Assembly (NCBI GenBank): GCA_916610825.1
Contig: OU744453.1
Coordinates: 13,405,751-13,469,750 of the forward strand
DNA length: 64,000 nt
From: Haliclystus octoradiatus
Taxonomy: Eukaryota; Cnidaria; Staurozoa; Stauromedusae; Haliclystidae
Direction: 5' to 3'
The translations under genes and the position numbers were made by a program. Shown piece by piece: positions 413 to 56,600 of the stretch (its first letter is position 1; every line of letters starts with the position of its first letter). The notes under the pieces were generated by a model. The model was not told where the DNA came from, made no database searches, and worked only from the letters and a program-made list of their open reading frames with translations.

Positions 413-15655
<15,243 letters not shown>

Positions 15656-20600: not shown

Positions 20601-23600
20601 CCCATTGAAGTAAAAAGTCATTAAATGTTTTGGCTATAAATTGTGGGCCATTATCACAGCAAAAGGTATTCGGTACTGAGCTCTGACAAAATACAGATCT
20701 TAGCGAGTTTATAACGGTACCTGTAGGAGCATTCTTACCAAGGTTGAATATAAATGGCCAACCAGAGTAGGCATCAATAATAACGAGGAATTGATGGGCA
20801 GCATACGTACCAATGTCACCGTGAAGTTCTTCAAATGCTTTTGTTGGTGCAGGACGAGAACATAGAGGCTCTTTTCCTTGAGAAGGTAATTCTTGTTGGC
20901 AAGGTTGACAGGAACGCGTGACTTGTTCAATCGCTGAGTCTAGGCCAGGCCAATAGACAATGTTTCTAGCACGTTGACGTGTACGATAAACGCCTTGATG
21001 TCCTTCGTGTAATTTAGCTAGAATTGATGGTCGTAATTGAGACGGAATGATTAGGCGACAACCGTATAGAACGAGATCGTCATCAATACTAAGATGATGT
21101 CGCAGATTCCAGTATGGTCGTAGAGCGTCGTCCACTGAGTCTTTTACGTCAGGAAATCCATCTCGTACCAATTGACGTAGTGCTTGGTATTCGCTGTCAT
21201 GGTTACCATGGTGAAGGACATCACTTACACGGAGGTCTAGTGGAGAGTCGGCATGAGATATTGCTAATACGGAGTTGATAAATGCTGTAGTTTCTTGTGC
21301 ACCTGATATATCGTTCTCATTTGGTGTAGACACAGGTGCCCTTGAAAGAGCATCTGCTGAGTGATGATCTTTTCCAGGCACCCAAGTTACTTTAAAATTG
21401 TACTGCAGCAACTTCATCCGTAATCTCTGTAACCGAGGGTTGGTAATTTCATCTAACCTGAAATTGTTCAAAATAGGCACAAGTGGCTTATGATCCACAT
21501 GAACGTCAAATGTGGGTAAGCCCATTAAGAATGTATGGCATTTAGTAGTAGCCCATACAACAGCGAGTAGCTCTAACTCTATCATTGCGTAGCGCGATTC
21601 TGTATCCGTTAGAAATCGCGAACCCGCTTGAACCAGACGCCAAGTATCATCTAATTGTTGTTGCTGTAATATAAAACCTAGACCTTTTAAGCGGCTTGCG
21701 TCTGTAGATAACATTGTAGGTCTCGATGGGTCGTAATATGCCAGTACAGGGGCAGATATTAATGCTTTTTTAACTTCAATAAAAGCATTAGTATGAACAT
21801 CAGTCCAATAAAATGTATTCCGTGTTTGTAACAAGGGACGGAGAGGTTCCGCAGCGGCGGATATAGTGTTTGTAAATGCAGATAATTGGTTAACTAGCCC
21901 TAAGAACGATCTAAGTTCAGTTATATTTTCAGGGCGAGGGAATTCTTTTATAGCCGATATAATGTTGTTGTCTATAGTATAACCATCAGAAGAAAGTTCA
22001 AATCCAGCAAATCGCACGGATGATTTTGCGTATTGAAATTTGTTTTTGTTCAGCGAGATACCACGTTCACGACAGCGTTGTAAAAACTGGCGTACATGTT
22101 GTGTGTGTGTCGCTGGTGAATTGTCATAAATAATTACGTCATCGACGACTTTTCGGAAACCGGTAAGACCAGAGAAAGCCTCGTCCATACGGCGATTATA
22201 ATGTTCACTTATGCTAGATATGCCAAACGGGGCCCGCAAATATTTAAAGCGGCCGAATGGCGTTATAAATGTTGTTAGATCCTGACTAACGGGGTCAAGA
22301 GGGCATTGATGATAGCCTTTCAATGCATCAAATGTCGTAAATACTTTTGCATGTGATGATGAAATGTCAGCAATAGATTCAGCTGGCGTTGGTGACGTGT
22401 AACGCTCACGTTTAACAAAACGATTTAATTTTGATAAGTCGACGCAAAGACGTACATCGTCAGAGTTTTTCTTAGGGGCGACAACTATAGGTGCGCACCA
22501 ATCAGTTGGCTCTGTTACAGGGGCTATAATTCCCTCTGTTTGTAATTGATCTAATACAGTTTTTAATTTATCTTTATATGCAAACGGAATACGCCTTGGA
22601 GTCGTAACACAAAATGGTGTGGCGTCATCAGATAGACGAATAGTAAATTGTTCACCAGGCATAGCTTTGACTTTTCCGTCAAATACATCCGGGAAGTCAT
22701 TGAAAATATTTTCTACGTTAATGTTATTTGAATTTTTGTTGTCAATTGTATTCAATAAGGGGTCAAATGATGACTTGTCCATAGAATTAGAGGTTGCTGG
22801 TAATGGTGTTGGGTAATGAGATGGTATTATGCCTAACGAACGGCTAGTATACCAAGATAAAAACACACCAGGGACACCTTCTAAGACATAAACGTCATCA
22901 ATCACAGTTGTACCCCCGAGGGTAAATTCAGCCGGAAAACGGCCTATGGCTTTTATACTGTGACCATCGGCAGCTTTTGGTGAAATGTCAGCTGGTAATA
23001 GATTATTTTTATCAATACATAATTGTTTCAAAATTGCAGGACCGGCGGCAGTAATGTCTGCACCTGTGTCGGGTGTTACATTGATTGAACCATGTTTGGC
23101 TACGTGGCCACCGATTTTGACTGAGATAGATGGGGCTTTACGTCCTATTGTTGCTAATATGGACCCAACTTGACCTTGAGGGCGAGTTGTAGACTTAGAG
23201 GTCTTACTTTTTGAACGGCATACATTCGAAAAATGCCCTTGTTTGCCACATTGTCCACAAAAGCGATTTGTAGCAGGACAATCATCACGGTCGTGTTGTT
23301 TTCGACCACAGTAAGAACATTTTTCATTGTCATTTATATTGTCCTTAGAATTAGATGCTGTAAAATTTTTCTTATTTGTTTGTTTTTGAACCGCATGTAC
23401 TGAGGGTTCAATATCACCTTTAATATCACTACGGTGTAAACGTGCTGCTTCCTCGGAGCGGCACTGAGCAATGGCTTTTTCTAAAGTTAATTTTTCAATG
23501 GAAAGTAATTTTTGAGTGATATCTCCATCGTAAATACCGCTCACAATTCTGTCTCTTAGGACACAGTCTTCAGTCTTGCACTCTTGACAGTGAGTGCAAT

Positions 23601-26600
23601 AGTGGCAAGTTTTTAACAACTCGCGCAGATCAGTTAGCCAATCGTCAAATGACTCACCGATTTGTTGCTCTCGTTGATTAAAAGTTTTTCTTTCTATCAC
23701 CACGTTCAGCTGGCCACGAAGATGACGACGAAGTGCTGAAATAATGTTAGCAGGCGTGGAAGCATCAGCGGCTGACAAATTTCTAACAACTTTAAAAGTA
23801 TCGGTTGAAATGCATAACTTCATTGCAGCCAATTGCGTCGACAACGGCTGATCTTTAAGGCCAGAAATTTCATGGTATGCTGACCAACGATCACTCCATA
23901 TCTCAAAATTTTCACCGCGATCTATAGCAATGTCCAGATACGGTGCTCTAATAGACGACGGTAGACGGTAACTATTAGTTGTTTGATGTTGTGATTCGTT
24001 ACGGGATTGTGTAGAATTAGACGAGCCAGTAGAATCGGCAATACTCGACGGTGGAGTAGTCATGTTAAAAATTTCAAAATAATAATAATGATGTTTGTAA
24101 TAAACGAATAAAGTTTATACTCGCAGCGCCATGTAGGATAATCGTTAGACGATGACTCAAGATAATCACACAGTGGAGTTATCAACAGAATGAATATATT
24201 AGTATCACTACACTTATATATATGACATAGAAATGAGGCTACATAACAAAGAGGCTTGACTATATATTGATTATCACACACTCAGTAAGTTTTCAGTATG
24301 CTTCAAGCAGGTTTGCTGAATTTAACCTATCTAGAACATCATGGATATACTGAATCGCAACTGAAAACTTACTTAAAACATACTGGAATGGGATTGAGTA
24401 CTGAAATCATACTGACAGTCACAAGACACTTGATCTAGATTGTTCTCATTCTACTGAAAAGAGCCCAATTCAGTAGCATACTCAGTAAGTTTTCAGTATG
24501 CTTCAAGCAGGTTTGCTGAATTTAACCTATCTAGAACATCATGGATATACTGAATCGCAACTGATAACTTACTTAAAACATACTGGAAGGGGATTGAGTA
24601 CTGAAATCATACTGACAGTCACAAGACATTATAATCTAGATTGCTCTCACTCTACTGAAAAGAGCCCACTTCAGTAGCATACTCAGCAAGTTTTCAGTAT
24701 GCTTCAAGCAGGTTTGCTGAATTTAACCTATCTAGAACATCATGGATATACTGAATCGCAACTGATAACTTACTTAAAACATACTGGAAGGGGATTGAGT
24801 ACTGAAATCATACTGACAGTCACAAGACATTATAATCTAGATTGCTCTCACTCTACTGAAAAGAGCCCACTTCAGTAGCATACTCAGTAAGTTTTCAGTA
24901 TGCTTCAAGCAGGTTTGCTGAATTTAACCTATCTAGAACATCATGGATATACTGAATCGCTACTGATAACTTACTTAAAACATACTGGAATGGGATTGAG
25001 TACTGAAATCATACTGACAGTCACAAGACACTTGATCTAGATTGTTCTCATTCTATTGAAAAGAGCCCAATTCAGTAGCATACTCAGCAAGTTTTCAGTA
25101 TGCTTCAAGCAGGTTTGCTGAATTTAACCTATCTAGAACATCATGGATATACTGAATCGCTACTGAAAACCTACTTAAAACATACTGGAATGGGATTGGC
25201 TATTGAAACCATACTGAAATTCACAAGACACTTAAATCTTGATGTTTCTCATTCTACTGAAAAACTCCTGAGACGAACATTGAAATTTGAAAGCTACTGA
25301 TCAAAGAACCGAATTCAATGAACTATCCAGCACATTTTCGGTATAGTTGGTTTTCATATTTTCAAAATTCATAGTGTTATGTTATGTGAATTCATTTTTG
25401 TCAAATATAATAATCCACAATTTGAAAGAACATTGATTCTCAAATCGCACAATTGTTTTTTTCGAATTACTATTCCAAAGTAATATTCAAATTATTATGC
25501 TCAACAACCAAACAAAACTGCTACTACAGAGTAAATTCAAAGTTAACTAATAATTATGTAAATTAGCAAACCTTGACTCTAAAGACAAACATTTCTAGAA
25601 GCTTCTTTATAGGAGGAACATGGCTTGTTAGTGACGAATCTCGAACTGTCTGTGAGACGAAAAAATGAAAGAGAAAACATGAAAAATCACTTTAATTTTT
25701 TTTACGCCAAATGGTGCAGGCTGCAGGTCTAAAAGTATAATCTTGCTTGATAGAAAGGTTATTCATTACACTATACTTGTGCCTCCAAACATCACATTTG
25801 CGAGAAATTTGCGATGGAGCACTGCAAATTCTGCATGGATCCTTTAATGAAAAATAGAGTAATTCCATGTCCATGAACTCGTAAACTTTTATTCACGGGG
25901 AAATGTATTTATAAACAAGGCAGTGGAATCACATGAATATTCTTGTTTCCCTTACTTTCAAATGTCCACAGAAATGATTCAAATTTCTTGTACTCTGCTG
26001 TAGATTTTTAAGAATACTTGCAACGATTTCCTGAAAAAAAAACAAGGTAATTTTAACATCACAGATATACTACAAACTATGAACAGTTAGTACCAGATTA
26101 TCACATCTAAGGGATAAATTTTATTTGTAGTCTGTCTCCGAAAAGCATTAATGTTAATTAATTCAGCAGTTTAAGAAACGGTCATGAACAATTGATGAAC
26201 AGTTCATCAGAACATTTGATGAACATTTAAAGAACAGTTCATGAACATTTGATGAACATTTGATTAACAGTTCATGAACTTATTTAACAAAACATTTCAG
26301 AAAATATACAAGAGATTGGTATATCACAACACAATCATTTTTACATCGTCATCGTCATCAAAAATATTTTACCAAATGTCTTTTTACATCATTCCAGACC
26401 TCACTTCTAGACATTGTTATAGCTTGTCCAGAGTATTATTCCTCATTGTTACACTACTGGAAAAATGTTATCAGGAAAATGATCAAATATAATTTTATCA
26501 GGAAATTGATAAATTATAATTTTACCAGGAAGTTGATAAAATCTAAACAGAGACGACCTAGCTACTGTATATTGAATAGCAAATTTAGGACGAATAACAT

Positions 26601-32600: not shown

Positions 32601-35600
32601 TAACTCCAAAAATAATTTACCATTCTAGAATGAATAAAATCACAGTGTTTAAGTGTTAAACTTAAATGCTATGTAGGGTTCAGACATATAGATAAAACTA
32701 CATATTTATTGTGTGATTTATTAGGGTGTTGACCCTACAACGGTTACAAGGAAAGAGAGGGATTACATATTACAGTTGATTATTTACCTGAAGTGATAAA
32801 CGGAAGTTACAATATATATAAGACAACAAACAAACCACTACAGCTATAACAACAACATGTAAACAAATAAGATTTAACGGATCTAAAGATAATGAACAAC
32901 AACTTATAAATGTAATTGTAAATATAATTTTGTATAAATGCGTTGGGTTCAACAGCTGTAAATGAAGCCAATAATAGAGTAATATAGAGTAATTTGGCTG
33001 CCTGCTAGATTATCAAATTATGAAACTTTTCAAATCTCTAAATTTTTTAATACAATGATATCAAATAAAATATCAGATGAAGTATATTATTTTAAAACAA
33101 CGTCATAGACTCATACTTTTCATACAACAGATTTGTTACTGTACACAGTTATCTCGACACAAATGTTTGCATAATTTCACGACAACGGATTATCTGTATT
33201 ATTTCGCCAGTAAGACGTACATAAGTCGCGGACAGACACAGAAATATCGAAATATCGAAACATAGTGATATATAAACAGACAGTATTATTAGTATAAGTA
33301 GATATATAATATGTCATTAATCAATAGTCAACCAATAAAACGTAACAAATGAAAATATGTAAAACCAGACAGACCGTTAAAATTGATTATGGACAGTTCT
33401 CAACGTGAAAGAAATATAACTGTTAAGCATGTGTTTGACCTTGATGAAATACCCCCATCTAAAGGAGGCCTTTTAATAGGCTTTACGTGTTAATTAGACA
33501 TACACTACACAAGAATGACATACAGTAGTCGTATAATACAGCCCCTGCGAGAAACAGTTCAAGAGTTCATGAACAGTTCATGAACCCTCATAGACAGTTC
33601 ATGAGCAGTTCATTAACAGTTCATGCAAAATAGGCGCCATTCAACGTTCATGAACACTCACAGACAGTTCATGAACAGTAGATTAACAGTTCATGAAAAA
33701 TGGGGGCCGTTCAACGTTCATGAACTGTTCATGAACTCTCACAGACAGTTCATGAACTTTTAATGAACTCCTGAACTGTTTTTTGCAGGGACATGGATAG
33801 AAGGATCTCCCCTGCGAAAAACAGTTCAGGAGTTCATGAACAGTTCATGAACAGTTCATGAACGTTAAATGGCTCCGATTTTCCTGAACTGTTCATGAAC
33901 TGTTCATGATTAGTTCATGAACCCTCACAGACAGTTCATGAACAGTTCATGAAAATTTGAGGCCATTTAACGTTCATGAACTGTTTATGAGCTCCTGAAC
34001 TGTTTTCGCAGGGGCTTACTTGAAAGTTAACACAGTATTGGTTGGAGCTCACTGCTAAATTAAAATAAGTTAAAGTGAAATAAAATTTAAAATACAGTTT
34101 ATTCTTACCTTTAGTGCATAGCCAAGAACCACTTTACCATCAACAACCTGTCAGAAAATAAAATAATTAAAAACAGTTGCGATATTGTAAAATGCAAATA
34201 ATAGAAAACATCAAACCGATCTTATAGAGCATGTCATTTAACTTTCATAAATTATTTCAAATGGGTTTATGAGCATTATCTTTCCCCGCTGTGAAATAAT
34301 TTATCCTATTCATGAATACTTTATGAGTTGTTCATTTACTTTGTAGTCATATACTGTCCATTAACTGCTAGCAAACAATTCCTGAACTTTATGAACATTC
34401 ATGAACTTTTAATGAACACCTCCTAAAAATGAACACCACAGAAAGCAAACATTCATTTGTACATTAAACATTTATGTAATTATTCTTCAGTTTAGATCAT
34501 AAACAATACGGATCATATTTGGATCTAGTAAATTGAAAACGTTTGAATATAGTAATATGTTTTCAAGTTCATTCCTAAATACTGTTATCTTACCCGTACA
34601 AGACTGATCAACATATGAAAACATTTCACACCATCATTAAGCTTCACCAATAATTCAAAGTGATCCTAAAAAAAATAAATTAGAAGTATCTTGAATGATC
34701 TTCACGAACATTTTTCGTGGGTTCATGAACATATTTTTTTTGAGTTTATGAACAGTCACAAATAGTTCATGGACAATTAATGAACTGGTTCATGAACATA
34801 AAACTTCTAGAAAAGTTCATGAACAGTTCATTACCTTTCCATGAGTTCATGAGCAGTTTGCAGTTTCCATGAGCAGTGCAGAGCAGTAGTTCATAAACAT
34901 TATTGCAGAGCAGAGCAGTAGTTCATAAACATTTTTTGTAGGTTCGCGAACTTCATAAATTTTCACAGGAAAATACAAATGCCAGGCTGGAGGTATTATC
35001 TTATATGATCAGAAATGGAGACATTGTATTCGGTTGGTACTTCTCGTGTGCTATGCATTAATCTTCAGATCAATTCTTCTCATTGATCAATTCTTCTGAT
35101 ATTTCAGAATGGTCTCTGCTGGCAAGTATTTTGGTTGACACCACATGTGTCCGATCAATCTAACTATATATTAAATCTACTTGGCAAAGTTTATCTTTAT
35201 CTTGATAATAATTAACAGATAAACAATTAAGATAGCAGTTGCCGTCAATCTTTATTTGACACTTGAAAATAATTCAATAAGTGTTATTATGACCTATTAT
35301 TCCCAGAATAAAATCTCTATTTGAAGATGTAAAATCGACCGGCGGCCTTTGCATTTGATCTTTGAATATGGTGCGTGATTGTTTTGGACGATTATGGAAA
35401 GCCTCGGAATAAATAAACAAATTGTGCTGAGAAGAAGGAATGGCAGAATTTGTCATAACACGATAAGAAACACTGTTCTTTGATAGTTTTTATATGGGTA
35501 TTTATTATTGTTAATGTTTATAAATCTTTCAGTTGAGTTTTATAATGTATCGAAAGTTAACTATAAGATTTTGAGGAGAATAAATTATTTAATATTACAG

Positions 35601-38600
35601 TATAATGATATTAATTTTCGTTCATTCTTCCATGAAGCAACGTATTAATGCTATGGTCGAGAGCTTGTTATTGGCTTTAAAATTAATTGTATCTGAAAGT
35701 TAAAATTTGTTCAGATAGAGTGATGCACAGTGTACACTATAGTGAGAAATGACATTCTTTTTTCAATTTTGAGCCTGCAAGGCGCGATGGTCAATTTATC
35801 CAGCTTGCTTCATTACTATTATTTAGAATAAATTTAGAATGTGATTTCCTTGTCTTGTCTGCAAGATCATTTTTGAAAATAATACCCTTGATGGAACGTA
35901 ATACAACATTTTTAAATGTGAATAAGGATCAATTCATAATCCATTTGGGGCCTACTGTTTGGAGGTATGAAGTAATTTTATTCAGATATAGATTGACATA
36001 CCATTGACTTTTGATTCCGTGTGAGTACAGTGCGCAGCCATGAGACAAGCTCTTCAGAAATACTTCGATAACAAGCAGGAAAGGTGTTTCTTCAATGAAA
36101 GATACATATATATATATATATATAATAGTACTTATGTTGTCTGTACTGTTTTCATAGTGCTCAATGGCATTTGTAAATGCAGAGCTATATATAATTAAAT
36201 TAATTGGAAAAACACAAAAAATCAAACATTCATTTTTGCTACTTCAAGTTTCACGCCTAAGCGATCATCAGGCAATCTAATATACTAGCAATGAGTGTGG
36301 TCCATTATGGACCTTCTATGATAAAACTTTCAGATCACTTATAATTAAACAATTGACTAAGCTGACTATCGCTGTATAATACGGAGTATGAACTCTGGAG
36401 GAGAACATGAGACACAATACGCATTGAAACGATGTAGCATTAATCAATACATCTTAATCATTCCTTTAATAAAAATTTAATTTATTTCACATCAATTGAG
36501 TCGATTGAAATGTATAATTTAACGTAGCTATATCTACATAGAAAAAACTTTATTTTATGTGCTGAAAGGAAGCCAGAACACATTAATTATTATAAATTAC
36601 AAATATTCAGTCAAATTTCGAAATCTGAAACTATTCATAAAAAATCACTTCAAATCCGATCCGATCCGAAGACCTAAAATATTAACCCGAATCTGACCCG
36701 ATACGATCGGATCGCGTTCGGTTCGAATTCATAAATCTTTATTGCAATATATACAACACTAATGTGGTGTTCACAAAATAACGCCGTCAAGGTGTGGCCG
36801 GTCAAACTCGTGGCATTGCATGCAATATATTCAATAATAAATTGATTTAGCTTCGAAAAGACACATGGTCCACTAGTTTCTGTTATTAACATGATCAAAC
36901 GATATCTTTTGTTAATTAACAATGATTTACTGCTTCATATTAAAAAAAAATAAGAAAAATCATTGATAAAAAGTTGCCGAATGGCGGATTTGAACTGACG
37001 ACCTTGATATTGTGAGACCAGAGCATTAACCAATAAGCCACTACCTTACTTACTGTGATGGGCGCTTTGACTGTACTAATCAACAAACCTACTGCTTCGA
37101 CAACGTATATTGAACAAGGCCGACCCACGCGCGTCTATTGAATTTCAAATTATATATACAATCTGAAAATATTATGATATGATAGTATATGAGCCTATAT
37201 ATTTTTGATCTTTGCAATCTCAGCAAGTACGCCTGTGATTTTCATGGCAGTCTATCAAAATACTAAGAGTTCGTTGAAAATAAAATTTTATAAGTAAAAA
37301 GAAGATGTGAAAAGTTGGCCTCATAGTGTATCTTGTTATTAAATTTTCCAGAATAATAGCATCAACATTCTTTTAAAATGAAATAAAATTCTATAATAAA
37401 TCGCTATACTAATTCGATATTGATATAATGTTACATCTTGTTGTCAATATTTCTACGCGCTATTTATAATACATTACAGATGTCGAATGAAAGAAAAGAC
37501 GATTATGAATAAATTAATTATTTTGATAGAAAAACGAAAACAACTCATTTTGCCAGATTCGTGATATGCATATTTATTCAGAATTTATTGAAACGGACGC
37601 GATGGTTTATAGAGTGGAAATGTTTAGTGCAGCTTCAAAGATATAAAATACCATAGCCGATGGTAGTATTTAAACGCTCATGTTATGATGTCTGATGAAA
37701 AGGATTTACTTATATAGAAAATGAATCTACTTTACCTTGCATTTGATCGCGATATGAAATGATCATTTTTGTCAGAATTATTTCGAATAAAAAACAATTT
37801 ATATTTTATTCTTATCAGGCTTACATTCTCCTTCGATAAAATATGGTTGTTAACTTATTATTGATTGGTGTATTAACTCAGAGAACCCGCTATTATGTAT
37901 TTAAATGTTGTTCGGAGATTATGCCGCTCGTATAGTTTTTATTTGGATCTCATTTGGAAAATGGTAAGTTGTATTTTAATAAATATTGTTTGCTATGATC
38001 GATTATTTCATGCAACCTTTTCACTTTTTATTTTTGTAACACAAGGTTTGTTACACTCATCCAAACTGTATTAACTATTTAAAAATGTTTTTGAATTATG
38101 TTTTTGTGCTTTTAATTTCAAAGCAAAATTTTTGAACGCTGAAAATATTATAATTATTATTATTTTTCACAAATCATACGCTCAATTCAATTTAACTTTG
38201 TTGAATTTGATATATACCTGAAATTAACTTTATTAAATGTTGATCAACGATAATAACAAGACACCGCTATTTTTATTCTCGAAACTGTAGTAACATTATA
38301 CTGTGTCTTATTCTTATAGCAAGTCAACAAAATTAAATTTTAATTTTAATCGATGCTTACAATTCCTTCGTTAATTATGGAAGCAAAATCTGAAAATAAA
38401 TGCCTGCCTCGCTGCTCAAAACCAAATGATTCATATTTTTATATTAAATAATAAATTATAGAAATACTTTTGTGCAATGCCTTGATTAATTCTAAACTCT
38501 ATAATTTTATACTGTAGACAGATAATCTATTCGAACTTTGAATATTTTCGAATTAGTCGAACGCCAACGTCATTTTGAAAATTCTTGCAAGTTAATTTGT

Positions 38601-41600
38601 TTTTATGCCCCGCGATAGATTATTCATTTCAAAACAGATTGTCTGCTCAGTGTTCTCACAAATTATATATAAAAATAGCATTTTTAAAAGTGAAATGTTT
38701 TGTATCTCGATTTTGAGAAAAGTGATGAACGGCATTTTGTTTCATTAATAAATTAAATTAAGACCTAAAGTCTCTTTAATTTCATAGCGTTTGTGCCGCG
38801 CTATATGTATTGCTGATATCAACACTACATGAAATAGGTCTACGTTTCTTTGATTTCAAAAGATATTTTGTCTGGCCTAGTTATACTGGTAATTCAATGT
38901 AATTCAGCATTTCGTATTGTTTTAATTATCATAAAACTGATTCAGTTTCAAGTTTCACTTGTTCAATCAATTTACACGCAGCTTTTAAATTCAAAGCAAA
39001 ATATTTTTGTTCTGGGGATGTGAATTTGAATTCGATTTTGCTGCCCGCTAGATTATCGACCTATAAAATTTTTAAAAATCTCTGAATTTTTTAATGCAAT
39101 AATATCAAATAAAACATCAGATGAAGTATATTATTTTAAAACAACGTCATAGACCCATACTTTTCATACAACAAATTTGCTACTGTACACGGTTATCTCG
39201 ACACAAATGTTTGCATAATTTCCCGACAACGGATTATGCGTATTATATCGCCAGTAAGACGTACATAAGTCGCGGACAGACACAGAAATATAGAAATATA
39301 GAAATATTGTGATATATAAACAGACAGTATTATGTATATAAGTGATATATATATATATATTACTCTAGCCCCAAGAATAAACTGTATAGCTGTATCCAAA
39401 ATGCTTCATAGCCAATCACAGTTCAGGAAAACATTAGACAATTTCATAATACGGTCAAACCTGTTATAATGGTCACCTCTGGTCACTCTTGCAATGTCCA
39501 AAATAGTATTTTCTATTGAATCAAACCTGTATATAAAGGCCACCTGTCTATAATGGTCAATTTATCAACGTCTCGTAGCTGGCTGTTATATACAGGTTTA
39601 ACTGTATATTATATTAATAGTTTAATATAAATAAAGTATTACTTGTTAATGGCCTTTTATACAGGGTTCAATAAACAGAACAATGCTATTCACATATTAC
39701 CTCTAAAGAGTGGTCACCTGTCTATAGTGGTCTCTTTTTTGATGTCCAAAAAGTTTATTCTGTTTAATCCATGCTGTTCATAAAGGCTTAGGTTACCTGC
39801 ATATAGCTGTCAATTTCTCAACATCTAATAGCTGGGTGTTATAGTAAGATTTCATTGTAGCAGGTTTCGATTAAAACCATTAGCTAATAAAAGAACTTAC
39901 TTGTTAACTGTTCTCCATTCTAAATTGTCATCTGATGATTTATTCTCTATAAATGTTTTCACTGGACCAACTAATACTGTATCAATAGTAGAAACAATAT
40001 CTTCAGATGACTGGATATATGTCCTATTAAAAGAACATAGATAGATTTATGTCAGTCAATTTATGAAAAAATAAATTAACTCAAGAATTGATGAAGAGGT
40101 TTTCACAGGTGAATATGCAATAAAAACGTGTTGTGAACATTATTTTATTTTATTTTATGACTCAATATATTTCTAAATGCCGTTCTAGTGACTCGATTGG
40201 CTAACTCCCTGGTTTGGATCACACAAGCCATGAACAAACAAAGAACCATGTCAGCGGCCAAAACATCCAAAGTAATTGAAAATAAACCTCAAAATCCTGT
40301 GAACATCATTGATAACAACATTTCAAAAAGTTAGTTTTTATATCATTATTTTTGTTTACGCTACTGCATGATTTTTTTATTATAATAATATTGAGACAAA
40401 ACCAAATCATGCTACAGTACAACAAAAAATAAATCTAAAAATAGCAGAAAAGAAGATACCAAAATCAAATTGTTCAATAATGGAACTCTGCACCTAATTC
40501 GAATAAAGACCAAATTTGAAGAAGACAGAAATATAAAGCTTTGTGGTTAAATGTTTTTAACTTAGTAGAATTATGTTTTGTTTCACAAGACATTTTTTTG
40601 TTTGGGAATTCTGAAACCAACATTTGAGATGTTGGGAGACACCCGAAAGCTTAAAACAATCGCCTTGTGCTTTGCTGCTGCTCTTTTGTGTCTCCCAACA
40701 TCCCATGTGTTGGTATCAGAGAACACAAACACGGTTGTTGTGATGTAACCCTTTATTAAACAATTGTACTACAATACGTTTCAAAGTAACCCATGCATTA
40801 AACCTGTGAACAGGTTCAGCCTTCAGATTAAACCTGTGAACAGGTTCGACAAAAGGTTGAGCCTTTTTGAATCTTAGAGGTATTTCAGTATTTTCTTCTG
40901 AATGTTTTTGTTGAAGTTTTCGCATTAAACCATAAAAATATCAATTTTCTTCTGAATTCGCTCTAGCATTCCGGAATCTAGGATTGCAGGATTCCTACTT
41001 TTGTCGTTGGACCCTGCCTGTGAAAAAGCATTACAAACTCACAAACGTGGAATTCAATTGTTCATGAATTAATTATGAGAAGTTTGACAAGACGGTCGTA
41101 ACCTCCTCCCTTTGATGTCACCCATGTTGGATACTCACTGGATCCATGATGCAATTGTGGAATTGAATGCAGCACCCTTCTCCTTATCTCCAGATGGTGT
41201 TAACCAATCTCTACACAGGAATTCTTTGCAAAGAGAATCTGAAGTAAGACACAAAAGAGTTGATTCACACAGAAGAACACAGATTCGATTTGAGTGAAAT
41301 GACTCATACTGAAATCAACAAGTAAGTTGTCCAATGTGGATTTATTAAAAACGAATCCGATGACGTCATCCCTCCACCTCCAAATGATGAACTTTAAATT
41401 CACCATGATTTAACATTAAAATTACTTCACCGAAATTGATACACGTAATAAAAGATACATTAAGCTTACATATTACCTCTAAAAATAAAATGATGTCAGT
41501 GCGGGAAAACGCGAAATAGTACGGGAAAGCTGTATCAAAATCGTATAAGAAGAAGCAATAACTCATCCTTTTTGTTGTTACATTAAACAAATATACTAAT

Positions 41601-44600
41601 TATTCGAATAATTTCTCTATACAGGCCAATTTGAAGATTTGTTTGCCAGTACTTGCCCGTACTTTAATTTAATTTGAAAGTGCGACATTATTTTGAAGTA
41701 CAATATCAAAATGGCAATGAGTGATTAGTAGAAAAAGATTTCAATACCGCAATTGATGCGATGTTCCAATGGTATAATGCTCAGTATCTAATGAAACATG
41801 ATCAATATCCAGGTCGGTTAAAAATATTATCTATATTTTCTATTATACTATAATGTCAGTGCAATTGGGATAAGTGAAGTTAGCGTTCAATCTGACTTTT
41901 AAACCTACAGATTCTTTAGTCGTTGTTTAACAATATTGGTTACGTGAGAAGTAAATCTTTGACAATTTGACATTTGATTAACAATGCAACACAGCAATGC
42001 CCTTTCAAATGTCTGGTGGATATTTTGCTCAAAGCAATGCATGCACGACAGATAAATTAAAATAGAATTCATGTCTCATTTAGTCAAGATACAGCTGTGC
42101 ATTATAGCTCTTAATGTAAAACATAGCTATATCATGTATCTGAAATGTTTATCACTTGAGGGTTTGTACTACAGACCCTACAATCATTGCTAGGAGGCTC
42201 TTAATAATTCCCTCTGAAACAGTTGATCCATCATCATAATATGGCAATCATTTGTCGTTCAGATAAATTCAAGACTAAATTGACAATCAAGGGATAGGAA
42301 TTTCAGATCATCAGAACCAAAGCACAGGTACACTGCGAACGGGAAAAATCAGCACATCTGCCCCTGTGTAAAACAGTTTAGGGGTTCATGAACAGATCAT
42401 GAATGTTAAATGGCAACAAAATTTTCATTAACTATTAATGAACTGTTCATGAACTGTTTGTGAACAGTCTGTGAAGGTTCATGAACTGTTCATGAACTTC
42501 TTAACTGTTTTTTGCAGGGGTGAGTACTTTTTTGCATATTCTCTTATAGACAGTTGATAAGTCAATTACATACTCAATTCAGCATGATTCCCATCCCCAT
42601 TGATAAGTCCACATTTGATAAGAATTTGCATGATCAATTTTGCTGAATTCGACGATGGACATGTACTTTTCATACTTGTGAGATATTTCATAGCCAATCT
42701 AGACAAATCAATAATAGCAATTACATCTTTAATTTTCTTTGATTCGAAAATAAGGATGTGCGAATATGACACAAATCCGAAAATGATCCGATCCAACCGG
42801 TTTAGATTGAAGCACAATCAGATCAGATCTGTTCGGCAAAAAAAAAATTAGTTGAGTAGATGAACTATTCATGAACATCACATAAACAGCTCATGATTAG
42901 TCAATGAACAGTTCATGAACACTTACTTGAACAGTTCATGAAATTTAGAAATTTAAACAACCCAATTTTCATGAATCTTTTTCATGAACTGTTTTCACAG
43001 GGGCGCCATCCCAACTTCAAAGGAAATAATATGTCTTATATTTCAAAAATCTAACCATCTAAATCAAGTTTCTGTAAATTTGATCTAACGCACATCTTCA
43101 TTTCAAAAGAATGTTAAATAAGTTTTCTGATTTCAAGAAATACTGAGTGTTTAACAAACATTGAGCAATCTCACATATATGTGTTTACATCGTATTATAG
43201 TATAATAATTATACACTGAATGTGCAATCACCCTACGAAAAACAGTTAAGGAGTTCATAAACAGTTCATGAACAGTTCATGAACGTTAAATGGCTCCAAT
43301 TTTCCCGAACTGTTCATGAACTGCTCATGAACAGTTTATGACTGTTCATCAACAGTTCATGAACCCTCACAACCAGTTCATGAACAGTTCATGAACAGTT
43401 TATGAAAGTTTGGGGCCATTTAACGTTCATGAACTGTTCATGTACTGTTCATGAACTGCTCATGTACTGTTCATCAACTGTTCATGAACTCCTGGACTTT
43501 TTTTGCAGGCGCATGCCTCGATTTCACATGTCTAAACATGTGAGAGAGTCACATTTCTAAACACCATAGTATTAGTAAACCCAAATTGGTATGTTTGTGT
43601 CGAGTTTCTGTGAAATAGACCTTCAATTGTTTACTGTTCAGTTTTGCTGTAATTATGTTTGACTCATAGAAAATTAAAACTCCAATTTTTTACCTTAACT
43701 GGCTGTATTAAGTGACGTGATTACTTTGCCAAGTTTTTTTTAGATAAACAGATAAGCATTTTTGAGAAATAGGAATTTGAAAACAAGAGAATGAAAGTTG
43801 AGTGACGTCATACTGTAAAAATTCCTATCATGACAAGTTTTATGGTAAAATCACCACAATTATCAAGCATTCGTTTTTTATATTTGAAAATTGAGTTGTT
43901 GTTATGGACAAAACTCAATAACTGTGGTAATTTTACCATAATTGTCATGATAGGAATTTTCAAAGTAAGACTTCATTCAACTTCCATTCTCCATTTTTTA
44001 AGATTTGAAATTCGCACTTTTTAAAATGCTTATTTCTCAAAATATACTTATTTGTTTATCGGAAAAAAAACTTGAGTAAAGGTAAAAATTTTGATTTTCA
44101 ATTCTTATGAGTCAACGATATTGGAAGATTATGTATAGATGATGACGATGATATTATGACATCAAGATATTGTAATTACTTTGCAGTAGAGGAAACTTGA
44201 TCCGACACTTCTGATCGCTGAGGAGTTAAACACGAGAGCACAGAATCAAGGAGGTCTTCATTGTTGCTGTTGTGAAATCCATTCCTGTTAGTTGCAAAAA
44301 AACATGCAAAGAAATATGGTTATCCATCTCTGCATATCCATGTAGCGTACACAATGAATATAAAAATGTCAGCATTGATCCTGTCTGACGTCACACTCTA
44401 AACTGTTAGGGGTATAATTCGATATCTTGTTTTCACTTATTACCTTGCGTTAGGAATCTTACCTTGCCATTTTCCAACAATTATAAAGTTTATCAATGAT
44501 TGTCACCTCTGCGAAAACAGTTCAGGAGTTCATGAACAGTTCATGAAAATTGGAGCCATTTAACCTTCATGAACTGTTCATGAACTCCTAAACTGTCTTC

Positions 44601-47600
44601 CGCAGGGGCAGACACAAACGCATCTAAATAAGAGCAATGTGATCCATGAAATACCAGCATAGGCAGTATAAATTGGTCGATTAGGCATAATATAAGCAAC
44701 TCATTTATCATTTTTTTCTTTTTTTCTAAAGAAAACAGTTGACTATATTATGTTCAAGGTTTATCTCAAATATAGCATAGGTACATTTCAAGAAGAACAG
44801 AGTTATCTCCAGTATTTGGAATAATCAATTTTACTGAAGGCCTAATCAATTTGCAATATATTCTAAGCAAGCTCTGCACTGAACTGAATGCACAGATCAT
44901 AGCAGTTTATTACTAAAATGCAGGGTTCTATAAAGTGGCGACTCCAGGACTTAGAGTCTTGGAAAGATAGCAAAAATTTAGAAAGAGGAGAAGAAAATCG
45001 CTGTATCTAAGTTACAAGTGCTAACCTGCCTTGAAGGGGGGAGGCAATTTATAGAAAATATTTAAAAACTACTTTAAGTACAACCAACAACTTTTTATAA
45101 AACTTCTTTCTGGACAAGCGGGTTGATTTCAAAAAAAAAAGTTTCCAGAATTGCAAAAAAAAAATTCTTTCCCTTTCTCTGTGAAAAACAGTTCAGGAGT
45201 GCATGAACCTTGAATGACCCCAATTTTCATGAAATGTTCATGAATAAGTTCATGAGCTTTCAAGGACAGTTCATGAACAGTACATGAAAATTTTGACCCA
45301 TTTAATGTTCATGAACTGTTCATGAACTCTATAACTGTTTTTACCAGGGGTTTCTTAAGTCTATCTTACCAAAAAAGCAAAAGTAGAAATTTATTAAAAT
45401 TACCAATGAAGTAGTGTGTGAAATATTTCAAGAATTTTCCTATGGAGTAGACTTGCAAATTTGACACCATCTTCAAACATTCCTTTGCCATCCATTATAC
45501 CATTATTTTGATCAATTACTGACTGAAATTGAAATAATGTATTAAAACTCGGTAGGCACAGTCAAGCAATCAATATCAAACACAGCTGGAAGTCTTGGTA
45601 AAGTACCAAACACTTCCTGAATAGGTCTTTGTTAAATATGGCACAATCTAATCCAATTTTATATTTTTTTAAGTCAAATGTATTTTGAGAATAGGATTGA
45701 ATGTACTCTATATAGGACAGAGCGTTTCTAATATTGTTTCCATTTACATGACATTTCAGCTAAGAAGAGATAACCCATTGCACTTATGAGATATACTGCT
45801 GTGATTCTATTGTTTGAATGTTTTACCATCTTGATTGTGCCTTGTGAATTAGGAAGATATATGTTTCACAATGCTAACCGTGCAAAAAACAATTGAGGAG
45901 TTCATGAACAGTTCATGAACGTTCAATGGCCCAAATTTTCATGAACTGTTCATAATCAGTTTGTGAACCTTCATGGACAGTTCATGAACAGTTCATGAAA
46001 TTTGGGGTCATTTAACGTTTGTGAACTGTTCATGAACTCCTTAACTGTTTTCGAATGGGTTTGACAAAAAATAGCAACCTCAAACCCTGGCTGCAGATAC
46101 CAGATCTATCTTTACCCAAACTCAAATTAAACATCATTTGAGATTTTTGAAGAGGCATGACTGAGGCCTCGGGCTCAGGCATGCAAACAAAAATAATTCT
46201 AAATCTCAAATACTAACAACGAGTAATTTTTCATCAAGCTAGTTTAAGGCATTACTGAATAAAAGATTAAGAAGATAGCATGAGAAAGTGAAAAAAAAAA
46301 GAGTCGGTAACAAATATTTGTCTATGTCAGTAATGGCCACTACACAAATAACAATCATTGGCTCTAAAAAATCCAGTCAAATGCGTGCATAATTATTTGA
46401 ATATAACCTTGTGCGCAGAATAGTTCATGAATTGTGTAGATTAAGTACTTGTTTATGTCTCCCTCCTGTCGACCATAGTCTTACAGATATCAAGCAATGT
46501 GCAGGGCTGTCAATTACTAGCATTGTTTTGCGTGGTACCAAAAATTATTACCTAATTCAAAAGAGTAACAAATTATTTTATTCAGGTAATCAAAACAAAG
46601 AAAGTAATCAGTAATTGCTAGACGTAGAAGGTGATCCTGTACGATTACCAAATATAGTAACGATTAGTGATAAAGATGCTTTTTCAGAAAAGTAATTGAT
46701 TACAGGCCAAAATTACTGAAAAAGTAATTAATTACAGTAATCAATTACTTTAGTAATGATTACTAATAAAGATACTTGTTCAGAAAAGTAATTGATTACA
46801 GGCCAAAAATTACTGAAAAAGTAATTAATCACAGTAATAAATTCGCTTGGCACAGTGGAGGTGTTGAACCGATCAAACAATAGAATCACAGCAGGACAGC
46901 TTTTACAAGGACAGTAATTTTACAGTTAAACCGTTCTTAGCTCAAATATATATAAAATGGTCATAGAAACAGGAAAAAGATTATAAAATTGCTATATGAT
47001 GTCTGAATTTTTATATATCACAATTCCATTCTCAAAATATGAATCGGACTTTCAGCGAAGTCTTAAATGAGATTAGAATGTGCTATGTTTAGCAAAGGTT
47101 TGTAGCCTACTGTAAGTGTTTGGTGCTTCACCAAGACTTCTAGCTGTGTGTTGATATTGGACATGTGACTGCGCCTTTCGAATTACTTTAGTAACGATTA
47201 CTCACAGTCCTGGCAATGTGATATATCAATTGAACAATGGTATATTATGCAATTGAAAATATTTTGCAGTAAAATAAATGAATATATACCTGAAACTTAG
47301 CAATGGCACTCTTCAATAGTAACAAAAGCAGAGGAAGGTATTTGACAATGTCGTTCACAAATTCAACAGGGTCTTTGGTGGCAAGACGGGCAAAACCAAT
47401 TGATTTATCAGACTTTGGCTATTCAAAATAATTAAAAAAATTAAATCATTAGAAGCAAGCAATTATTTCTTGGTAACTTAAGAAACATAATTATTTTTTC
47501 TATGTTACAAGGAATCATAGCGCAACAGTTTCTCGTACAGTAATACATTAAACAGAGTATTGATCCCTGCGAAAAAGTTGAATGTGAATTTGCCATGATG

Positions 47601-50600
47601 TCATGAAACTTTTGAACAATTTCAAATGTCATGAACTGTCCGTGATTGTTCATGAACTGTTTATGAAATCATGGATTTTTCACAGGGAAAGTCATTATGA
47701 TTGTGAAGAATCAGCTAGAGATTATAAATACTTAGTTTCGGTTGATGTGACAATAACAATGAGTCACTTGAAAAAAATAAAATCAATATACCTTAAAGAA
47801 TGTCTTTCTTCCAGACGTTGTACTTGGTAATTTAAATTGAACTTTTGAGCACAGGTCTTCAACTAAGTAAATAATAGTTGGTAGAATGATTGAAGAAGCA
47901 GTGATATCCTAAAAAATAGAATAAATCATATAAAACCAGTACATATTTATTTATACAGTGGTGGTACTCATTATCATCATTATCATCAAGGGAAGTTAGT
48001 GTAGTGGTTACGGTGTTGGAGCTTGGCACGCAGGGTCTTGGGTTCAATTCCTGGCAATAGCATTATTGGTTGGTGTCAGGAAGAGCATGCGACCATTAAA
48101 GCTCACACATTCTTTCAAAAAAGACACTTGCTGTAAACAGTGTGTAATATTTCTCCTTGTACAGCTGTTTTTCAATAATTCATATGATTAATCAATGTAC
48201 ATGGGTAAATTGAAATAATTAATTAATAAATAATTGAAATGCTGGAATTGTAGTGCACTAACCTCGTCAAAAAGAGATTCATCTCGTATAGATTTAACAA
48301 CATTTCGATAATTGAATACATCAAATACAGAAACATCTAATTCCCTGAAAAACAAGATTTTTTATTGTAAGGAAATAATTTCAAAATACTTCCACTATGT
48401 GAAAAAAATCCATGAGTTCATGAACAGCTCATGAACATTTTTCTGTGGAACAGTCAAGAAGAGTTTGTGAACACTTCATAGACCGGTTCAGGGACTGGTT
48501 CATGAACGTGAAATTGCCTGAAAATTCATGAACAGTCCATGAATGTCCGGTCCAGTGCTCTAACAGTTGAACTACTTACACGGTCATCTGTTCTGCTTCC
48601 ATAATAACTGCAAGTCACTCTTGTCACTGTGAACTCTTACAGCTACATAGCACGCCGTTAGTTTTGCCGTGCCACATGAGTTGATTTACCAAGTGTCTAG
48701 TGACAATCACATCCCAACAAATATTTGTCTTACCGTAAGCAGTTCTTCAAACTTGTTATTGATTGCGAAATCTGTTTTTCATCTGGGATATCATCAATGA
48801 TATCATCCTCTGCAGTTTCATCACATGCAATCTAGCAAAGAAAAATCAAGACTTATTTTAAAAAAAAAAACACGGAGAAACTAGAAAAATACGACTATTC
48901 TATGAATGTTGTGAGTTTTAAATGCATATCTCAATAAACAGGAAAATATTGCCGATGCAATGGCGTCCACCATTGGTATGTAGCATATTTATTAAAAATA
49001 TCAAATGTATTTTTTATATGTGGCTGAATTTAAATGTTGACATATAAAAGAGAGTTCCTTCAAACGGTAATAACTCTCCAACTTCAATATCAAAATGTTT
49101 GAAAATAGTATCATTCGAATCACTGTGATTTTACTTGGTTTGCTATTTCATTTTCGTTTTGTACTTTTCGTATCAAAACAAAATGCATCTTTTCATTTGG
49201 CGGTCTTTCCTCCTTATGTCATCCCCTGCGAAAAGCCGTTCAGCAGTTCATGAACACTTCATGAACACTTCATGAGCGTTAAGTGGCTACAATTTTTCTG
49301 AACTGTTCATGAAACCTCACAGACTGTTCATGAACTCTTGAACTGTTTTCGCAGGGGATAGCGTGATATTGTTCACAAGGTGTGTCGTGATGGATCTCCT
49401 CAATTCAACTCAGCCCACATTAAACCCAGCAACGTAGTTAACTCATTGCTAGTAATATATATTAAACAAATAGAAATGATTATCCGTGTTGAGTACTCTG
49501 ATACGAACACACTGGGTGCATAATGAGACATGGAAGAGGCTTAATAACACTCTGGCCTCTTGAGTGTATATAGAACAACCCCTGCGAAAAACAGTTCAGG
49601 AGTTCATGAACTGTTCATGAACGTTAAATGGCTCCAACTTTCCTGAACTGTTCATGAACTGTTCATGAACAGTTCATAAACCCTCACAGGCAGTTAATAA
49701 ACAGTTCATGAACAGGTCATGAAAATTTGGGGCAATTTAATGTTCATGAACTGTTCATGAAGTCCTGAATTGTTTTCACAGAGGAATGACTATATTGTAC
49801 TTTGTACATATACAATACATATACAATACTACTCTTCTTGCCAGGAAAGTTTGCGATTCAGGGGGTGTAAAAACAGATATAGATAAATTATGTTGTGACT
49901 GATGACAGAGAGCTGTTTCGATTATTTGCATCATATTCTTTTAAAAATATGTAGACTTTCAAACAATTTTTATCCAAACAAATTATGGCAATTTGGAATT
50001 TAGTAATTAACTCAATGATAAGTAACAACCTGGTCTGCATCCAAACACGTAACATCATTGTTTTTACTTGATGCCGTCTTTTTCTTTCTAAAATTAAGAT
50101 ATCAAACAATTCATTGTTATTTGTATATAACTCACAATTTATTACCAGTTCATAAAAAATTAAGCAATGTGAAATAACACGTTTTTCACAGATCTTTTCG
50201 TAAGGTTTTTATGAACAGTTCATGAATCGTTTCATTGACTGCTTCGAGACTCTCTTTGATAACATGGGAAACAATTCAATATGAGTTACACTTTCACTTC
50301 AGAAGTTCAGTTCAGCAATTTTATATATCTACAGTTAATGCACGCATGTATACATAAACAAGAATTGAATTACGGAGCAAATGCATATTGAAATCTTTCC
50401 TCCTTTTTTGGGTTCAATACCAATCCACAAAACACTTCATATCCTTTTTGGCCAGTTTCTTTGTGTAACCTTTGCACAACCTGTCCAATTTGAACATATA
50501 TCTTTCCAAGAATCCCCCATTTCACATCAGAAGTCCATAGAAGCAGTATTGGATAGCTGGTATCAGGTTAAAAACCCCATAACAACAATCCTACTTTATA

Positions 50601-53600: not shown

Positions 53601-56600
53601 GGCTGGTTTCCAACAAAAAACGATTTATTAATTGATGTTACTTTTAATCGATATTTCAAACTCCTTAACACAATTTTAATGATGTTGCTATTGTTATTTG
53701 TTGATGTGGTTAATTTATTTGCTGCTGATATTTTACGCGGTTTATTATTTACTTTTTCCCCTCCCTTCCCATCCCTTGTTGGTTGACAAAGGTAAGTATA
53801 ACTAGGAATTCCACTGACTTAGCAGTGTGACTGGAGCTTGGTTGGTGGTGTCAGGTCTGCTATTGGTCAACTAGCTATTGTGTTTTGCTGCCAACCTCCC
53901 ACCAACCAAGCACCTAGGCCAAATTATTGTGATGTTAAGGATTCAAGATAAAGGGTTTAATCTAAATATTGACTGGTTTCCAACAAAAAGCGATTCATTA
54001 ATTGATGTTACTTTTAATCGATATTTCAAACTCCATTATGATCTTGACTAAATAATGCAGATATTTCCTAATGTTCCACGCTGTAACGGATTAACTCGGA
54101 ATAGGCTCGATGTGAGATCATGATGTGATAATAGTTAGCTTCCATCAGACCTTATTTCCCTACCTATTACATCACATCAATGTCAATTACCACATCGGTT
54201 TCCTGATGTGGACATCTGTTTCAAAATCTTTGGATTTGCTTACTAATACGAAAATAGCAGAATCAGATACAGTACAAGAAAGTTAGTTAATGTCCTGAGG
54301 TGAATTAGAGAATTTGTAGGATGGAAAAGAATACAAAAACAACAACACGGATAACTAAACAATCTATTGCAACATTTAATCAATAGAGTTATAGCTTGTC
54401 GAAAAAAATGAAACGTAACAAAAGTCAAACTTTTAAAAAAATTTTGGTACATTTAAAATGTTGTTTCCTTGCATAATTGATGCGATGAATAGTAAAACAA
54501 TTATCAAACTCGTTCTTTTGCATGACATTGAGAATTATCAGACCTCAATGCTCAAGACACTTGCAATTATGCTGCTTTTAAACCATACACATACCTAGCA
54601 ATGCACATATTCCAGACAAGTCGCCACTCTGCTTCTTTTCACACGTTTGAACAAGACGGAATTGAGGTGCCAGACTTGCAAGTTTATGATGCACAATAAG
54701 TCTAACATAAGAATGTAATTAATCAAAAAAGAAATCAAGTAAGACATGATAAACAGTAAAAGTTGACCCTGTTTCCCTGCGACAATGAATTATTCATGAC
54801 CTATTCCCACGTTTGTGAAATGTTCATGAAATTAGTATGATGAAGTTAATGCAGTGTTGCTCATGAAATGATTAATATTCTTCAATAGGGAACAGCATTT
54901 TTTCAAAGTTGTGAAATTGTGAAATTTTGATTTTATGTTTATATCTTCACAATCGTGGTCATCTGTTTAAAGCTTGAATCAACAAAGATGGATAATATAA
55001 TATCAAATATTAATTGGCATGGATAGATGTGTTTCATGATGTCTACTTATGATACTCCATGGCTCCATTGAACCGAATATCAATTTCCAGAAAGGCCGCC
55101 AACTGCTTAGTTTTATAACAAAAAAGTTATATCATTCCATGTCAAAAAAGTTGAAGGATATATTTGCAATGTTGAATATAACCAATGGAAACATTTCACA
55201 AAAAGGAATTTATCGTAAAGGCACATATCCCCTATGAAAAAAATCCAAAGCTTTCAAGTACGGTTCATGAACAGTCAAGTACGGTTTATAAACAGTTCAT
55301 GAACTGGTTCATGAACGTAAAATTGCCAACAGTTCATGAACATTTCATGAACTTTTGGGCAATTTTACATTCATAAAACTCATGAAATTTTTGTCACATG
55401 GGATTTTCATGTAACGTTCACAGAAAACATCATTTGTATGAATCTATTTCACAGATGAACTACCTTTACCTTGACGATGAAGTTGCAGCGTTAGATTCTA
55501 GCTCTTTGAGTAAAATTGGTGCAATATCTATAGCAATTGCTTCTTCGGTTGATTCATCAATGTCAAAACAAAGGTTCACTTGTGAGTTCTCGCTGAAATA
55601 TAAAAAGTAAATATGGTTAAGAACACATTGAAGCTACAACCACTATGCATTATGTCATAACGTATTATATTTTTGTTACGATATTATTCAAAGTAATCTA
55701 CCTCTGTTGTATCGTTTCGCAATCGATTGTGAACTTTTCTTGGAAATGTGCCATCATTGTTTCTGCTACCCATTCCTTCAAGGAAACAAAAGCAAATAAT
55801 TACAAAGACGTGATAGTCTTACCTAAAGGTCGGTTGAGAAGGTGCGTGAAATTTGAAAATGCTTAGAGCATAGATGTTAGAGTATTGATACTAACGACAG
55901 GAAGAAATAGAAAGAGACAAGTAAAGACTATCAAAACCAAAACGAACAGAAATCTGAGCTACATCACCTAATCAACTATCTACTATAGTTGTGTAAATAT
56001 AAATCACATATCATAATATGATAATAATAATAATAATAATAATAACAATAATAATAATATTAATACGGTTAATTATAGTTAATATAATCTCAACATTTAG
56101 TTAGCCATAGTAGGGTTATAAGTAGTATAGATGACCCTTTATTGGATATTACTAGAGTGACCACTATATACAGGTAGCTGTTAAAGCAGGTTTGACATTA
56201 CAGTCAAACTTAGTTATTATATCTGCTCTATTTATGCAGATGAGTAGTTGGACAATAATATAGAATGGGATAATATGTGAGGTACTCTGAACATGAGGTT
56301 ATAGGGGAATGGAATTTGGAACCTAAATTTTTTTAGGGGGGAATTATCATTTATCCACAAACCGGGTAAGCTTGCAGCTTTTTTTCATCGGGGTGGTTGG
56401 GTAATTTGTTAGTATTTTTGAAGCTTGTGTGCGTTTAATAGCCTGATGCCCTTCCTGACGCCAACCTATAGTGCTCCGACCAGGGATTGAGCCCGAGACC
56501 CTGCGGACCGTGGTCCAACGCCCTAACCACTACACCAAGGCCGCGAAATTTGGAACCCAGATTTGCGAGGGAAGCTCATCCATAATGGAAACCAAAGGGG

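Follow-up and report, generated by a model that had tools for sequence, protein, structure and literature searches.

A foldback MITE family with two-base target duplications in Haliclystus octoradiatus and its probable EnSpm-like parentage

What mobilised a family of small foldback elements whose ends read CCCC...GGGG and whose insertions are flanked by 2-bp duplications? The question is raised by a stretch of 64,000 nucleotides from Haliclystus octoradiatus (contig OU744453.1, here G000:C10:13405751-13469750, from a genome of 261.9 Mb in 33 contigs), which we call the window throughout and which holds a cluster of miniature inverted-repeat transposable elements (MITEs) with CCCCTGCG...CGCAGGGG termini. 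Based on our results, these MITEs are probably non-autonomous derivatives of a divergent EnSpm-like (CMC/'CMCT') lineage that combines such termini with a 2-bp duplication. The copies in the window are as follows.

33542..33791, unstranded: MITE copy A, 250 bp, flanks AG / CA without a 2-bp match
33809..34014, unstranded: MITE copy B, 206 bp, duplication CT
42361..42520, unstranded: MITE copy C, 160 bp, duplication TG
43231..43511, unstranded: MITE copy D, 281 bp, duplication CA, lacking a terminal C
44506..44608, unstranded: MITE copy E, 103 bp, duplication CA
45176..45350, unstranded: MITE copy F, 175 bp, duplication TT, left end diverged
45886..46051, unstranded: degenerate foldback copy of the family, arms only with decayed ends, inverted repeat I1 83% complementary
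49223..49357, unstranded: MITE copy G, 135 bp, duplication AT
49579..49784, unstranded: MITE copy H, 206 bp, duplication AA, self-folding

Identical 2-bp flanks are present in seven of copies A-H (all but A). A preliminary description of this DNA, made from the sequence alone, had placed copies B, C, E, F, G and H and read their flanks correctly, and its view that copy D fits with one base deleted also stands. Each MITE consists of a short terminus and copies of the palindrome GTTCATGAAC in both orientations, and therefore folds back; copy H has a fold energy of -67.4 kcal/mol compared to -21.7 kcal/mol for shuffled sequence (z = -14), confirming the foldback nature described earlier; the assignment of CCCCTGCG ends to one MITE family was also right. 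Successive TTCATGAA palindromes are most commonly spaced by 11 bp (177 pairs, with 30 in the next class). The copies range in length from 65 to 545 bp and most often measure 206 bp (10 copies, differing from their consensus by 3.8% on average), while the 545-bp copy, L042 (duplication AT), is expanded through 70-bp tandem units. The terminal 33-mer, allowing up to 3 mismatches, matches 4,918 places in the genome (2,524 + 2,394), of which a perfect element can contribute two, and its reversed control matches none. Among the places listed, exact family ends look clustered at 36.9-37.4 Mb and 2.2-2.8 Mb of contig C1.

We determined the length of the target duplication in 73 distinct two-ended copies, chosen by script and by their ends alone from the retrieved loci and the window; this sample is not genome-random, as many of its loci were picked because they resemble copy H or contain an exact end. 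Identical 2-bp flanks were found in 50/73 copies, compared to a mean of 9.2 and a maximum of 21 in 10,000 shuffles. A MITE family with 2-bp duplications of variable sequence, as first proposed from the window, thus held in the wider sample, and the lack of excess that the preliminary description had named as evidence to the contrary was not seen. In the 2-bp register the two flanking positions are identical in 61/73 and 55/73 copies, compared to 11-30/73 in the other registers tested. There is no excess beyond 2 bp, with flanks identical in 3/73 copies at 3 bp and in 0/73 at 4-8 bp. The 50 matching copies carry AT (12), TA (8), AA (7), CA (6), TT (6) and TG (5), and more rarely AG (2), CT (2), GG (1) and TC (1); read on both strands, G makes up 2% of first bases and C 2% of second bases. 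The MITE target site is variable, but AT-rich and skewed rather than fixed. The earlier statement that the duplication lacks sequence preference was therefore right as to variability and slightly too strong as to preference, and the chance of a matching dinucleotide, previously taken as 1 in 16 per copy, is nearer 1 in 8. The misfit with common sources of MITEs that had been pointed out is real: TA occurs in only 8/50 copies, where Tc1/mariner elements would leave TA alone, and no copy has flanks identical at the 4 bp of a piggyBac TTAA site or at the 8 bp of a hAT duplication (0/73 each).

A second sample, consisting of the first 30 listed places with an exact 33-bp end, all on contig C1, gave a similar picture. 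The second end was found by script in 27/30 loci, of which 18/27 have a strict 2-bp match and four more (L043, L050, L056 and L060) match when shifted by one base; in L040 the partner end was found by eye, with flanks AA.

Empty sites provided a further view of the duplication. The joined flanks of all 50 matching insertions were compared with the retrieved DNA, and 14/50 were read closely with one 2-bp copy removed, leaving aside insertions flanked mostly by the family's own repeat, which align ambiguously. Matches spanning the junction were found for 5/14 of these insertions, and 4/5 fit a 2-bp duplication. For L008 (TA), 13/15 empty sites have no gap at the junction, and for L022 (TG) 10/10 are gap-free, the five rows shown being units of tandem arrays in the window; L019 (TT) and L026 (TG) have one gap-free site of two each, at 69-80% identity. 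For L003 (CA) the count is 0/5: most rows align at the junction bases themselves, with a gap of ~5 bp nearby. Overall, the empty sites, which are paralogous repeat copies and not alleles, agree with a 2-bp duplication and do not fit the longer one that, according to the preliminary description, would have spoken against it. The L003 insertion is hosted by a dispersed repeat with a tRNA-like box, which by eye resembles a short interspersed nuclear element and recurs in the window at 48005-48107 and 56367-56529.

Which transposase belongs to these ends? The preliminary description had suggested a search for a long element with the same ends and a transposase open reading frame (ORF), and this search yielded two broken relics closing at family-type ends and no intact element. 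Of the 30 one-end loci, three had no partner found by script, and inspection by eye paired L040 and showed L047 to be truncated. In L045, the exact 33-bp left end is followed by ~110 bp of MITE sequence and then by a 255-aa ORF, a transposase fragment, downstream of which (L080) lies a one-sided 531-bp array of 16 TTCATGAA motifs with a diverged family-type end, its last letters being ...AACTGTTTCTTTGCAGGG[A] (also written ...TTTGCAGGG[A]). A protein search of the genome with the L045 ORF found five other loci at 46-70% identity, all short or broken, and 20 further rows at 24-33% identity with frames of up to 682 aa. The five L045-like relics are listed here by position.

C10:10503866, L045-like relic (L081)
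C11:8521531, L045-like relic (L085)
C1:9707250, L045-like relic (L086)
C1:9311451, L045-like relic (L087)
C1:17460184, L045-like relic

The first of these is an independent case (L081/L083), whose protein is 57% identical to that of L045 and whose gene closes in a one-sided 349-bp array of 16 motifs with the terminus CTCGCAGGGG at C10:10506589; by eye, its 5' part is broken by reverse transcriptase sequence resembling that of a long interspersed nuclear element. One-sided family arrays number four in the 363 kb of DNA examined, under a threshold set after the relic cases had been seen and in DNA that is MITE-enriched and includes some overlapping loci, and two of the four are those of L045/L080 and L081/L083. 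On C1, an exact listed family end lies within 5 kb of 1/6 of the L045-like list, namely L045 itself, which is a weak check.

These relics point to a known class of enzyme. The L081 frame reads TDG ... DLPAKA ... CISC, followed by NVHNAGVHY and FPFED, and the L045 ORF contains NVHDAGHHY and FPFED. Across the broken L081 and L045 one finds D, D, C(2)C, H(4)H and E, the set expected of a DDE transposase of the CMC/EnSpm (CMCT) class, where the fourth motif is H(3-4)H; linkage to MITE ends is seen at two loci. In Pfam, the L081 exon scores below the cut-offs for both PF02992 (Transposase_21; E 3e-4) and DUF1258 (E 2e-4). A profile of the genome's own CACTA transposases, run on a set of 7 sequences, aligns with the L081 stretch through TDG, D.P and C..C (E 1.3e-4). 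An intact 682-aa cousin, L082, is 33% identical to the L045 ORF over 166 aa; it has no convincing ends by script, no Pfam match above cut-off and no match among solved structures. We consider it likely that the transposase is of the CMC/EnSpm-like class. Because the two relics that close in a family-type array and terminus carry CMC/EnSpm motifs, the enzyme is probably of a known kind; of the earlier suggestion of an unassigned or little-known transposase, the unusual CCCC...GGGG end remains, while the unknown kind probably does not.

The genome also contains canonical CACTA elements (36 matches to PF02992), and four families, represented by one copy each, were read to their ends (a fifth, L061/L075, is not among them).

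L079, 1086-8293: CACTA family, CACTATGAAC ends, 3-bp duplication TAA
L076, 1369-8888: CACTA family, CACTATGAG ends, 3-bp duplication CTA
L077, 826-8141: CACTA family, CACTATGAATAA ends, 4-bp duplication ATTT
L078: CACTA family, CACTACCAAC ends, TTA on both sides by eye

The ends of these families share the phasing of the MITEs. Lag 11 is the top period in 7/8 of them and shares first place with lag 33 in the remaining one (self-match 0.37-0.53), while among 2,000 control stretches it was top in 69 and reached at least 0.37 in 26. The lag-11 self-match of one relic array is 0.38, with lags 36 and 37 ranking higher, and that of the other is 0.44, a value shared by lag 31. The subterminal motif is specific to each of the four families and the 11-bp spacing is common to all. 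Like CACTA / EnSpm elements, the MITE family has short subterminal repeats in both orientations. From this analysis we read the 11-bp spacing as putative helically phased binding sites. The TNPA sites of plant Spm are helically phased binding sites.

Given their open frames and the same phasing, the canonical CACTA (EnSpm) elements might have cross-mobilised the MITEs. We regard this as very improbable, since these families have CACTATGA or CACTACCAAC ends, duplications of 3, 3, 4 and 3 bp and different subterminal motifs, and none of the four has CCCCTGCG termini. CACTATGA as an exact pattern lies within 30 bp of the family array motif at just 4 places in the genome, and on C1 none of the 4 PF02992 hits lies closer than 5 kb to an exact family end, a weak check against 100 listed ends. 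As a direct source of the MITEs, too, canonical CACTA elements were judged unlikely, because ends and duplication lengths differ.

Another candidate is a PHIS-type transposase (PIF/Harbinger or ISL2EU). Its domain, DDE_Tnp_4 (PF13359), is very abundant, with 150 matches scored of 414 candidates and many intact frames of identical score, and PHIS duplications span 0-4 bp in the available parts of PMC10045372 and PMC12730594. The transposase found between family-type ends is nonetheless CMC-like, and 0/26 listed PF13359 hits on C1 are within 5 kb of any of the 100 exact family ends listed (again a weak check); an origin from PHIS elements thus appears quite unlikely to us. The many identical-scoring intact frames, 525 aa in length (for example at C6:9834102, C11:233130 and C5:7231893), suggest a recent burst of these elements.

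Several observations weigh against an EnSpm-like parent. No intact autonomous element with CCCCTGCG ends was found, the relics are few (two further relatives are all that the L081 exon has), and neither of the two linked to family ends combines a left end with an N-terminal coding region. The flanks of L045 differ (TT / AT), and a family end is present in just 2/5 relics examined downstream, being absent in L085, L086 and L087 (for L087 within 1 kb only). The class assignment has its own weaknesses: the L045 ORF has no Pfam match, the CACTA profile gives no convincing match to L045 (E 0.9) or to L082, the intact cousin (E 0.03), an AlphaFold model of L082 was too poor to be used (mean pLDDT 34), and a profile-profile comparison was uninformative. 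In neither relic array does lag 11 stand alone as the best period, and the MITE termini are not CA..TG and so lack the CACTA terminus. Finally, the relics are old and the MITEs younger (3.8%), so that a different protein may have been the last to move them.

The difference in age, the three relics of five without a family end and the unmatched flanks of L045 would also suit a different, undescribed class of transposase, with CMC-like relics standing beside family arrays by chance or through nested insertion. That a family end can run into other sequence is seen in L043, whose doubtful partner end lies 1,011 bp away, past unrelated sequence without a transposase. One-sided arrays are rare, yet two of them form the downstream end of a relic and are correctly oriented for it, and of the 2/30 unpaired ends (L045 and L047; three without the doubtful partner of L043) one adjoins a relic. 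We therefore consider coincidence unlikely, and favour derivation of the MITEs from an EnSpm-like lineage.

Under derivation from such a lineage, a DDE transposase of CMC type, possibly aided by a partner protein, would recognise the terminus together with the helically phased subterminal GTTCATGAAC sites, mobilising the MITEs in trans. It would excise the element and join it to target cuts staggered by 2 bp, and repair of these cuts would produce the 2-bp duplication. A duplication of this length falls inside the 2-5 bp given for the CMC clade, along with mostly CA..TG ends, in the available part of PMC12730594, and is unlike the 3, 3, 4 and 3 bp of the genome's CACTA families. We tentatively raise the possibility, to which we give somewhat less than even weight, that a separate animal CMC / RAG-related lineage exchanged CA..TG for CC..GG ends and came to a fixed 2-bp duplication, and that it is left in this genome almost only as thousands of foldback MITEs, with the 11-bp phasing of the related CACTA elements retained.

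These findings supply a probable parent for an orphan MITE family. They also suggest that end sequence and duplication length may shift within a clade that includes RAG1, and since an 11-bp spacing is common to ends of different type within one genome, those of four CACTA families and of the CCCC family, the role of helical phasing could be tested directly. No published description of the family was found by title or start of abstract, a search with Repbase and Dfam outside its scope, and the family may already have a Repbase name; the three literature matches to its sequence strings were, going by their titles, papers on insect pests.

The window contains other repeats as well. A 1,450-aa ORF of Ty3/Gypsy type (reverse transcriptase, RNase H and integrase) is flanked on either side by an array of a similar 200-bp tandem unit, and these arrays may sit in the long terminal repeats of the Ty3/Gypsy element. 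A 750-aa ORF on the opposite strand apparently lies inside a BEL/Pao element (Pao peptidase, DUF5641), between the first ORF of this element and its protease, and matches a zinc finger (C17orf113) and a hAT-dimerisation domain, both below the cut-offs. ORFs of these two retroelement types point to an animal genome, BEL/Pao being an animal group.

18837-19383, 19765-24114 and 24280-25263: Ty3/Gypsy region with tandem arrays
3261-11541: BEL/Pao element
62755-63181: array of a 5-bp repeat, 84 copies

How does the family compare with known systems? Foldback / Galileo elements (P superfamily) have long, internally repetitive inverted repeats, as does the MITE family, and longer duplications of 7-8 bp. 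Their transposase, as given in the accessible part of PMC3573991, differs from the relics described here. ISL2EU and PIF-Harbinger (PHIS) MITEs resemble the family in their short duplications of 0-4 bp, but no DDE_Tnp_4 transposase was found linked to family ends, the PHIS elements' own ends not having been read. The terminal CCC...GGG of piggyBac MITEs is similar (a CC[C/T]T motif in the part of PMC2872659 available), whereas their TTAA target and 4-bp duplication differ from the 2 bp of varied sequence seen here; the coral MITEs of that source, as far as its available text goes, are of the TTAA/piggyBac type and do not fit the family. Fungal CMCT elements likewise have 2-bp duplications (PlavakaA 2 bp, PlavakaB 2-3 bp, ESTA TA), but the Plavaka ends, TGT..ACA or CATCA..TGATG, are unlike those of the MITEs, and ESTA duplicates only TA, all according to the accessible part of PMC12730594; the Plavaka domain PF18759 had 0 hits in this genome, and control genomes gave none either. 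CACTA / EnSpm (CMC) elements are alike in the D, D, C(2)C, H(3-4)H and E motifs, in subterminal repeats in both orientations and in a short duplication, and differ in their CACTA / CA..TG ends and, in this genome, in duplications of 3, 3, 4 and 3 bp, compared to CCCC...GGGG and 2 bp in the MITE family. Overall, the probable transposase class is a known one and the 2-bp length lies within the range published for the clade, and it is the CCCC...GGGG termini that depart from the rule.

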